A DNA stretch of 64,000 nucleotides from Deltaproteobacteria bacterium (GTDB lineage: Bacteria > Desulfobacterota > Binatia > UBA9968), in NCBI GenBank assembly GCA_005879605.1, contig VBKE01000005.1:69311-133310 (forward strand). Reading direction: 5' to 3'. The position numbers were made by a program, and so were the translations under genes. Below the pieces are notes generated by a model. It was not told the origin of the DNA. It saw only the letters and a list, made by a program, of their open reading frames with translations, and did not search any database. Positions 16,383-22,849 of the stretch are shown piece by piece; position 1 is the stretch's first letter, and the number at the start of each line of letters is the position of its first letter.

Positions 16383-17576
16383 GTGAAGCGAAAGATACTT
16401 TCCGGCTACCTGGTTTTTGAAATCCTCCCTCCTTTTTTCTTCGGACTTTTGGCCTTTACTTTCGTCCTTTTGATTGCGCGCATCTTGAAGCTCGTTGAGC
16501 TTGTGGTAACCCGCGGCGTGCCGCTGCTTCAAATTGGCAAGTTGTTCTCGCTTATCCTACCAACCTTTCTGGAGCTGACGGTTCCCATGGCTTTTCTCCT
16601 TGCGATCCTGCTAGGCCTCGGCCGATTATCCAGCGATCAAGAACTTCTCGCCATGAAAGGTTCAGGGATCAGTCCCGCACAGATCCTTTGGCCGATCGCC
16701 CTCTTTGCCTTGGGAGTCGCCGTCACAACCCTGTTTCTCACCACGTTCGCTCGACCGGCGGCCAATTTCGCGCTCAAAAAAGAACTGTATAACATCGCCA
16801 AGAGTCGTGTTGGGACAGCTTTAAAGGAAAAAGTCTTCAACGACGACTTCCCTAAGATTCTCATCTATACGGAAGAAATCATCCCGCCGGGCAATACCGC
16901 GCAGGGCGTGTTAATTGTCGACAAACGCGACCCCGTGAGACAGGACGTTATTCTGGGAAAAGTTGCCCTCATTACCACAGACGACGAGACCAATACTTTG
17001 GGACTGAGGCTCTTCGACGGCTCAATTTACGAAACGGAAAAAAATCGCCCGGGTTTTAGCCAGACCCGATTCAATATCTATGATTTTAAACTTGACCTGG
17101 ATGATCTTATAGGACCCGTGAAGAGAAAAGAGGCAGGACCAAAAGAAATGTCCCTAAGACACTTGATCCGGACCATTCGAGAGAAACGAAACCAAGGAAC
17201 CATGGTCACACCCGAAATCATGGAATTCCATCAACGGATCTCATTCAGTTTCGCTCCCATCGTCTTCTGTCTGCTCGGGGTCTCTTTAACTTTATTACCC
17301 AGAAGCGCCCGTGCCAACCGCTCGTGGGGGTTTATGCTCTGCCTTTTTTGGCTGCTCACTTATTACGCGTTTCTGTCTCTCGGCAAGGCGCTCGGCGACA
17401 AAGGCGTTCTGCATCCCATTCCAGCCCTCTGGCTTCCTAACTTCGTCGTGGGCGGGATCGCGATTCACTTCTTCAGTAAGGCGCTCCGTGAATCCCCGCT
17501 TGCGTTTCAAGCTAAGCTGGAGACTGCAGTCGTTTGGGCGGGCCAATGTTTGGACCGACTTAAGCGGAAAGGATAA
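16383..17576 (+). CDS. lptF: LPS export ABC transporter permease LptF
   Basis: One of the two inner-membrane permease subunits of the LptB2FG transporter, which extracts lipopolysaccharide from the inner membrane. The 397-residue protein has an N-terminal membrane segment (IARILKLVELVVTRGVPLLQ), further helices to about residue 125, a periplasmic beta-jellyroll (about 130-290, with ILIYTEEI and LRLFDGSIYE) and C-terminal helices (SFAPIVFCLLGVSLTLLP). The start is GTG without a clear Shine-Dalgarno. It lies 18 bp before lptG. Confidence 0.93.
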   Translation: MKRKILSGYLVFEILPPFFFGLLAFTFVLLIARILKLVELVVTRGVPLLQIGKLFSLILPTFLELTVPMAFLLAILLGLGRLSSDQELLAMKGSGISPAQILWPIALFALGVAVTTLFLTTFARPAANFALKKELYNIAKSRVGTALKEKVFNDDFPKILIYTEEIIPPGNTAQGVLIVDKRDPVRQDVILGKVALITTDDETNTLGLRLFDGSIYETEKNRPGFSQTRFNIYDFKLDLDDLIGPVKRKEAGPKEMSLRHLIRTIREKRNQGTMVTPEIMEFHQRISFSFAPIVFCLLGVSLTLLPRSARANRSWGFMLCLFWLLTYYAFLSLGKALGDKGVLHPIPALWLPNFVVGGIAIHFFSKALRESPLAFQAKLETAVVWAGQCLDRLKRKG

Positions 17577-17594
17577 CAACACTGAAATCACACC

Positions 17595-18663
17595 ATGGCA
17601 GCTAGGGAAAACGTCAAATTTCTACCGGTCGGCAGCATCCTCGACCGCTATTTGGTTCAAGACTTTCTGCGCATTTTTTTTACCAGCCTGATCTGCGTTA
17701 CATCCCTATACCTTATCGTCGACTTCTTTGACCGCATCAGCGCTTTTCTCGACACGGGAGCCTCGATTTGGACTGTTATCCGCTATTTTTTCTATAAAGC
17801 CCCTCTGTCGGTTTCCCGTGTGATTGGCTTCGCAACTTTGTTCTCCGCTTTGTTTTGTCTTGGAATGATGGCCCGAACGCACGAAATCACCGCGATGCGT
17901 TCCAGTGGAATCAGCGTTCAGCGTGTCGCACTCCCTTTACTGGTTCTTTCATTGTTCATCTGCCTGTTCACCTTTTTCTGGAACGAAGCCCTGGTGCCGA
18001 TATTCGCCCATCAAGCACAAACGATCTTTAAGACGGAAGTCAAACGCAAGCAACAGCAGAGCTTATTCGGAACGGTGGACATATGGATAAGAGGAGAGCG
18101 TAGCTTTATCAACGTCAATCGTTTCGACACCGCAAACAATACACTTCAAGGCGTAACCATCTTTCTTCTCAATCGCGACTTTAGCTTGCGCGGAATAGTG
18201 GAGACTCCTACGGCTCGTTGGACCGGCCGCAGTTGGGAAGCCAAGGAAATCACATCGTGGAGCGTATCGCCTGATGGCAAAATGGTCCTTGAAAAATCAG
18301 CCGCCCTCCCACCCATTACGGAAACCCCCGAGGACCTCAAGCTACTCGCGAGGGACGCCGAAGAATTCACCTTTTTCGACCTACAAAAGCAGATCGCCGA
18401 CATGAAAGCTAAAGTCATAGATGCCACGTCTTACGATGTGGATCTCCAATCGAAGCTCGCCTTGCCGTTGATTTCCCCGTATGAGTGGCAGCATGGCGCT
18501 GAGCTTTGCTTCGGCCATGGTTATCGGCTTTGGCTATTGGGTTCTCTCTGCGTTTTGCGTTTCCCTGGGCCACAGTGGTGGGCTTCCACCGTTGTTAGCC
18601 GCATGGTTACCCAACTCCATATTCGCGATGATCGGATTGTTCTTCTTTACAGCGGAAGAGTGA
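17595..18663 (+). pseudogene. lptG: LPS export ABC transporter permease LptG, interrupted by a deletion/frameshift
   Basis: This is the partner permease of LptF. The first 295 codons (17595 to about 18480) read as a normal LptG: the start LDRYLVQDFLRIFFTSL, membrane helices, and a jellyroll ending LQSKLALPLISP. Directly after this the frame leaves the family sequence. The remaining family C-terminus (MALSFASAMVIGFGYWVLSA, then LGHSGGLPPLLAAWLPN and FAMIGLFFFTAEE) is found in another frame at 18495-18663. About 20 residues normally lying between the two parts are absent, so both a small deletion and a frame change occurred. LptG is essential in most Gram-negative bacteria, so an assembly error is a real alternative. 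Read without correction, the frame continues to 18767 with unrelated sequence. Confidence 0.85.
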
Positions 18664-18834
18664 TCGGACGGCGCCGGCCATCGCCGAGCAACTTCGGCTG
18701 GCCCATGCACGTTGAGATTCAATTTCTATACAGCCACTCGCGCCGGCCGCGTCAGGGGCGGTGTTGACTAGCCGACCAATCGCGCCAAGGACGCAACGTT
18801 TATTCGTTCGGGCGGTCTAGCGGAAGAAAAGATG

Positions 18835-20374: not shown

Positions 20375-22840
20375 TTACTGAGGCAAGATATCGGGACCCG
20401 GAGCGTCCTCAACCTTATCGCCGAACGGAGGATTTTCTTCTTTTGCATCGGCTGAGGCCGCAAGACCTTTGAACAGAGCATCCGGATCGTCAATGACGAG
20501 TGCCTTCTTTAGCACCTCGTCCATGTGAGACACGGCGATCATCTCAACCGTCTTTAGAACAGTCGCCGGAATCTCTTCTATGTCTTTTTCGTTATCCGCC
20601 GGGATCAGTACTTTCTTTATCCCAGCCCGGTGAGCCGCTAGCACCTTTTCTTTCAGGCCACCGATGGGAAGCACCGTCCCTCTTAAGGTAATTTCGCCGG
20701 TCATCGCCAAATCATTATAAACCGGAACCTTGATCAACGCGGAAACCAGCGAAGTAGCCATAGTGATTCCTGCGGAAGGTCCATCTTTCGGAATAGCCCC
20801 TTCCGGCACATGAATATGGACATCGATCTTTTGATAAAAGTCCCTTTCCAATCCCAACTCCATCGCCCGCGACCGCACGTAGCTCATCGCCGCCTGTGCA
20901 GACTCCTGCATTACGTCTCCGAGTTTACCTGTAATGGTAAGCTGCCCCTTTCCCGGCATAATGGTTACCTCAGTCGCCAGGAGCTCGCCGCCGAGCTCGG
21001 TCCACGCCAGGCCAGTCGCCACACCGATCTTGTGCTCCGCCTCCGCTTTACCGTATCGGAATCTTTCCGGGCCCAAATATTTGTGCAGGCTTTTCGTGCC
21101 GACTTGAATATGGGCGTTCCTATCCTTCTTTACCACTTCCACGGCAACCTTGCGGCAGATAGCGGCGATTTCTCGCTCTAGATTTCGTACGCCAGCCTCT
21201 TTTGTGTAATGTCGAATGACACCGAGAAGAGCATTATCCGTAAAGGCGACATTCTCGGGTGTAAGCCCGTTCGCCTCTTTCTGTTTCTCCAGCAGGTATT
21301 TCTTCGCGATGCTGAGCTTCTCGAGCTCGGTGTATCCGGCAATGCGGATGATCTCCATCCGGTCTTGAAGAGGACGGGGGATACGGTCCAATGTGTTGGC
21401 CGTGGTAATGAACATCACCTTCGATAGATCGTAATCTAGGTCCAAATAGTGATCATTAAAGGTGGTGTTTTGCTCAGGATCCAAGACCTCGAGGAGCGCC
21501 GACGACGGATCCCCCCGGAAATCCGTCGACATCTTGTCAATCTCGTCCATCAAGAAGACCGGATTGCTCGATCCCGCCTTCTTCATCGATTGAATAATCT
21601 TGCCTGGCAATGCCCCGATATAAGTCCGCCGGTGGCCGCGGATCTCCGCCTCGTCCCTAACGCCGCCGAGCGAAACTCTCACGAACTTTCTTCCGGTTGC
21701 CCGCGCGATGGAGCGCCCGAGTGAAGTCTTGCCGACGCCCGGAGGGCCAACCAAACAGAGAATGGGACCCTTGATCTTACCCACGAGACTCTGGACCGCG
21801 AGATATTCGAGAATCCGCTCTTTAACTTTTTCCAGGCCATAATGGTCTTCTTCGAGCACTTTTTCGGCTTCATTGATATCCAGTTTGTCGTCGGTCAACT
21901 CGTTCCATGGTAGGCTAAGAATCCAGTCGATATAATTTCTCACTACCGTGGCTTCCGCGGACATCGGCGACATCATCTTGAGCTTCTTGAGTTCCTTTTC
22001 GACCTTGTCCTTCGCTTCGGCCGAGAGTTTCTTCTGTTTGAGCTTTTCCTCGATCTCCTGAATCTCATTTTTGAACTCGTCTTTTTCACCGAGCTCTTTC
22101 TGGATAGCTCGCATCTGTTCATTCAAGTAGTACTCTTTCTGCGAGCGCTCCATCTGTTTCTTGACGCGAGATCGGATGCGCCGTTCGACTTCGAGGATTT
22201 CGATCTCGGCGCGCATGTGTCCGAGTACCTTCTCCAGTCGCTCGGCAGCATTGAAAGTTTCCAGAAGGTTTTGCCGGTCTTCAATTTTGATCCCGAGGTG
22301 AGCGACGATGGTATCTGCCAGCCGACCGGGATCATCAATGGATGAAACCGACATGACCATTTCAGGCGGGATCTTTTTCTTCAGCTTGACGTAGTTCTCG
22401 AAGGTCGTGCGCACTTCGCGGGTCAATGCCTCGACTTCGGTGTTGCGCTCAACGACCTCCGGTGCTTCTTCGATCTCAACCAGGAAGAAATCCGGACTGT
22501 TCACGAAGCGAACGATTTTCGCCCGTCGCTTGCCTTCGATGAGCACCTTCACGGTACCGTCGGGAAGCTTGAGCATCTGGACGACCGTGCCGACAGTCCC
22601 GGTTTTATAGATATCTTCCTCCGTGGGCTCATTGGTCTTGGCGTCTTTCTGAGATGAAAGAAAGATCGGGCTCTGCTTTTGCGTGGCTTCTTCCAACGCT
22701 TTGATCGACCGCTGCCGGCCGACAAAGAGAGGCACAACCATATGCGGGAAAACGATAATATCCCTGAGAGGTAACAGCGGCACACGTGTCGGACCACCGA
22801 CTGACTCTTTATCGTCTTTCTTTTCGTTACGAAATAGCAT
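20375..22840 (-). CDS. lon: ATP-dependent protease Lon
   Basis: A cytoplasmic AAA+ serine protease that degrades misfolded and regulatory proteins. It has 821 residues. The LON substrate-binding domain starts at about residue 20 ([20 protein letters not shown]), followed by a helical linker rich in Glu and Lys. Next come the AAA+ module with Walker [10 protein letters not shown] near residue 370 and Walker [11 protein letters not shown], then the protease domain with the catalytic Ser in [13 protein letters not shown] and the Lys in [12 protein letters not shown]. It follows clpX by 9 bp. Confidence 0.98.
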
Positions 22841-22849
22841 CGATTCCTC

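Follow-up and report, generated by a model that had tools for sequence, protein, structure and literature searches.

A frameshifting 41-nt gap in lptG and a second, intact lptG in the same Binatia assembly

The lptF-lptG locus and its interruption

We analyzed a 64,000-nt stretch of DNA, here called the window, from a Deltaproteobacteria bacterium of the Binatia (assembly GCA_005879605.1, contig VBKE01000005.1, here C126). The window contains the gene order rlmB-lptF-lptG-rpsI, which is kept in the closest relatives, and its lptG takes the orthologous position, downstream of lptF and before rpsI. The gene starts at the ATG at 17595-17597, 18 bases past the stop of lptF. The features of the locus are listed below, in window positions.

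16383..17576, + strand: lptF, intact, 397 aa (PF03739, 289 bits; TIGR04407, 237.8 bits against a cutoff of 230)
17595..18479, + strand: 5′ part of lptG in the original frame, 295 codons, with TM1-3, the periplasmic domain and the start of TM4 (TIGR04408 positions 1-276, 212 bits)
18479..18481, + strand: deletion junction, 41 nt absent compared with relatives and the frame shifted (DNA alignment; 29-mer unique)
18481..18663, + strand: 3′ part of lptG in the shifted frame, 60 codons plus TGA (PF03739 positions 302-351, 41 bits; stop at 18661-18663)
18480..18767, + strand: out-of-frame tail, about 95 nonsense codons followed by TGA (translation)

The LptG-like open frame that begins at ATG 17595 runs for 295 codons and ends with the proline codon at 18477-18479. 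A single base, T at 18480, is left over between the two frames, and the LptG frame picks up at the ATG at 18481-18483, one frame over, and ends at the TGA at 18661-18663. A DNA alignment of the window and nine relatives shows that exactly 41 nt are missing at 18479/18480, with a placement that is uncertain by about 1 nt across the 10 loci. A sequence-only reading had described an lptG that is interrupted and resumes in another frame, which the reading frames, the DNA alignment and the PF03739 match, divided between profile positions 1-280 and 294-351, all bear out. The loss amounts to 13.7 codons (13-14), and not to the roughly 20 residues of that reading. The loss of 41 nt by itself shifts the frame, and the gene carries a single lesion; a deletion and a frameshift are both present, as one event and not as two. 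The same reading correctly called the partner lptF intact (397 aa; TIGR04407, 237.8 bits over 230).

A ribosome that continues past the deletion would read about 95 nonsense codons before the stop at 18765-18767, for a predicted product of 390 aa, and the 3′ piece (18481-18663) codes for a normal TM5-TM6 and a normal C-terminus in the shifted frame. Against TIGR04408, the LptG equivalog model with a cutoff of 240 bits, the window gene scores 212 bits over positions 1-276 of 351 and therefore has no full-length match above the cutoff. Its six transmembrane helices do not share one frame: TM4 is cut and TM5-TM6 lie in the other frame. In the LptB2FG permease, TM5 of LptG and TM1 of LptF form one of two lateral gates, and in Escherichia coli every LptB2FG component is essential (PMC5548808). 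Because TM5, with its lateral gate, and TM6 are lost, the product of the window gene is very unlikely to work. Compared with LptG of that permease (TIGR04408/PF03739), the window copy is alike in its adjacency to lptF, its sequence and its domain layout, but differs by the 41-nt deletion in TM4 and the frameshift that places TM5-TM6 out of frame.

Comparison with relatives and age of the lesion

We read the C-termini of LptG at 43 loci, the window included and some records duplicated, and read-through fails only in the window and in one other genome, G010. A shortened version that stays in frame is absent from all 42 other loci, so that a natural short loop, which the sequence-only reading had offered as a way for its claim to fail, is rejected. 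In G010, the lptG (L030, G010:C109, about 2054-2900) has its own frameshifting deletion of about 20 nt, which lies roughly 35 nt upstream of the window site. A second LptG was not found in this genome, which is 80% complete, and such lesions consequently also appear in metagenome-assembled genomes (MAGs) in which no backup copy was found. In a further genome, an LptG match (G099:C36:7823-8521) ends at profile position 231, though its open frame is 377 aa long; it is possibly another frameshifted MAG copy.

The sequence of the window gene bears on how long ago it was broken. Relative to its orthologue in G001, its codon positions 1, 2 and 3 differ by 17, 10 and 50%, a pattern indicating that purifying selection acted on it up to very recent times. 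Protein identity to G001 is about 77-78% for the window LptG and 80% for LptF. The window LptG departs at two of 53 family-invariant columns, both glycines, where intact copies depart at between 0 and 4, and this count offers no separate hint that function was lost. With a normal C-terminus and a normal codon-position pattern, an older decay of the whole gene is rejected. The absence of decay beyond the deletion indicates that the lesion is either recent or artefactual, and the two fit equally well.

A second lptG in the same assembly

The same assembly contains a second lptG, on contig C502 (107221-108336, minus strand), which is intact and codes for 371 aa. Its product is 70% identical to the window copy and matches TIGR04408 over positions 1-348 with 270.6 bits (cutoff 240), compared with 89.8 bits for the LptF model. 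None of the 53 family-invariant columns is altered, and among PDB sequences it matches LptG chains such as 6mit_G best, with end-to-end alignments. At the level of sequence, both its intactness and its membership in the LptG family are thus as plain as the lesion in the window. The sequence-only reading presumed that the sole lptG was broken, and held that a second intact copy elsewhere in the genome would overturn it; the C502 gene (371 aa, 270.6 bits) is very probably such a copy, and the premise falls. That reading left a choice between an assembly error and a mutated LPS exporter. The gene is indeed either mutated or mis-assembled, but with another, complete lptG in the assembly the exporter as a whole may well be in working order.

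The C502 gene sits apart from lptF. The genome has one copy each of lptF, lptB and lptD, with lptF and lptD on C126 and lptB on C566, and a profile search of the genome found no second LptF. Upstream of the C502 lptG lies a LuxR-type two-component pair. Downstream follow, in order, a PMT_2 protein, two VTT-domain proteins, a fatty-acid desaturase and another ArnT-like protein; the sole NCBIfam match of the PMT_2 protein is the ArnT equivalog, at 197 of 567 bits and so below its cutoff. The region C502:99990-108336 (mostly L037) therefore holds the extra lptG, two ArnT-like PMT glycosyltransferases, two VTT-domain proteins and the desaturase, and is possibly an island for lipid-A modification that includes an LptG of its own. 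The PMT protein on C502 has a 70% identical counterpart at C560/C478, in surroundings like those of the G001 orthologue. The ends of these two contigs (L062:1-189 and L063:1-189) overlap by about 189 bases within one glycosyltransferase gene, at least 150 of them checked as identical, and the contigs are evidently adjacent. The C502 genes appear to be a second set of envelope genes, diverged from the first and gained either from a relative or by an old duplication.

A phylogenetic tree groups the window lptG with those of G001, G006 and G013 (support 97/95) and places the C502 lptG outside this group, which suggests an origin in a donor lineage or an old duplication. The tree speaks against a recent duplication within the genome, yet a topology constrained to pair the two copies is not rejected (p-AU 0.157). 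Elsewhere on the contig, C502:53375-56032 holds gene DNA about 69% identical to parts of the window lon (20375-22849), and Lon appears to be duplicated in this genome as well.

The bin that holds both C502 and the window comprises 6.59 Mb in 581 contigs and is 94.3% complete and 7.4% contaminated; given this contamination and fragmentation, two related organisms might have supplied C126 and C502. The GC content of C502 and of the window is 54.4% each, and their tetranucleotide correlation is 0.93-0.98, compared with 0.926 between one half of the window and the other. Two core genes, folD and gcvPB, are present in the bin only on C502, which speaks against its being a redundant contaminant; core genes are shared out among the contigs and not repeated, a distribution that favors one organism. 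Across the family, gcvPB is essentially single-copy, and the nearest relatives of the C502 gcvPB are those of G013, G001 and G006, which are also nearest to the window lptG. Together these sequence features make it very probable that C502 and the window share a single genome. A dispersed repeat of about 135 bp on C502 (118415-118550; L037:18163-18298) has copies on at least six other contigs at 82-98% identity; as the window has no copy of it, the repeat was of no help in joining C502 to C126.

Weighing the explanations

The explanation we consider probable is that the canonical lptG was recently disabled by the 41-bp loss, and that the loss is tolerated through the intact lptG on C502. A recent deletion of 41 bp would have struck the lptG of the rlmB-lptF-lptG-rpsI locus where TM4 begins; it would remove the second half of that helix and throw TM5 and TM6 out of frame, leaving a non-functional copy. 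The loss would be tolerated because a full-length, diverged lptG is present on C502, whose product could pair with the single LptF of the window and the single LptB of C566 to form LptB2FG. We infer here that the C502 copy is expressed and that its product does pair with LptF. We give a lower, tentative standing to an extended form in which the native lptG is caught in mid-replacement: an incoming lptG, accompanied by an ArnT-like glycosyltransferase, VTT/DedA-like proteins and a desaturase, would have taken over from the native gene, which would only just have been knocked out, and LptF would now work with a partner matched to a modified LPS.

The most serious rival, possible and yet in our judgement rather unlikely, is that the organism's canonical lptG is whole, the 41-nt gap being a product of the short-read assembler or of mixed strains. 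In its favor, the rest of the window lptG is without decay, the bin is a contaminated MAG in many fragments, G010 has a similar frameshift with no second lptG found, and in G099 the match ends at profile position 231. Against it, the junction 29-mer has one occurrence in the genome and lies deep within a 142-kb contig (C126), and an artefact would have to coincide with the one family genome found to have a second close LptG. A broken lptG occurs in two of about 24 family genomes, which gives this coincidence a p of about 0.08 by simple counting, a mild value. A repeat-mediated mis-join was considered and rejected, as the junction is not found elsewhere in the genome and the alignment shows no repeat there. 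The unique junction, the lack of a visible repeat, the site deep in the contig and the coincidence with a second lptG favor a real deletion, which we infer to be distinctly the more probable of the two. The gap may possibly be a minority allele caught in the consensus.

It is improbable that the C502 copy is a contaminant and that the window organism has only the broken lptG, or is a segregating mutant. The estimated contamination of 7.4% and the roughly 70% identical counterparts that the C502 lptG and its glycosyltransferase each have elsewhere in the bin would fit a contaminant; however, the GC content and tetranucleotides of C502 match the window, it carries the bin's only folD and gcvPB, and one would expect a contaminating relative to contribute an lptF as well, yet just one is present. 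A plain contaminant contig is thus unlikely. Least credible of all is a split but functional LptG, in which the N-terminal product works with a C-terminal piece started at ATG 18481, or in which translation crosses the gap. Each piece has an open frame and an ATG lies directly at the junction, but both products lack about 14 residues from TM4 and its loop, which frameshifting could not bring back; no Shine-Dalgarno sequence is visible by eye before ATG 18481, and no relative is split at the same place.

The finding is most likely an ordinary event, the disruption of one member of a duplicated gene pair. The window lptG resembles a duplicate turned pseudogene whose paralogue or xenologue survives intact in trans, in that one copy is disrupted while the other is intact and fully conserved; it differs in a lesion so recent that the assembly shows no further decay. 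Several members of the class have additional LptF/LptG-family proteins, with 3-5 TIGR04408 matches, but these are more distant from one another, and a second close LptG occurs within the family only in this genome. A limited literature search found no report of a duplicated or pseudogenised lptG. The analysis removes a false alarm, in that an apparently broken essential gene of a MAG is explained by a copy outside the single window. If the lesion is real, the genome offers a minor case from nature in which an essential permease gene is swapped for a diverged copy that lies away from its partner gene, and possibly of the replacement of an essential gene in progress.
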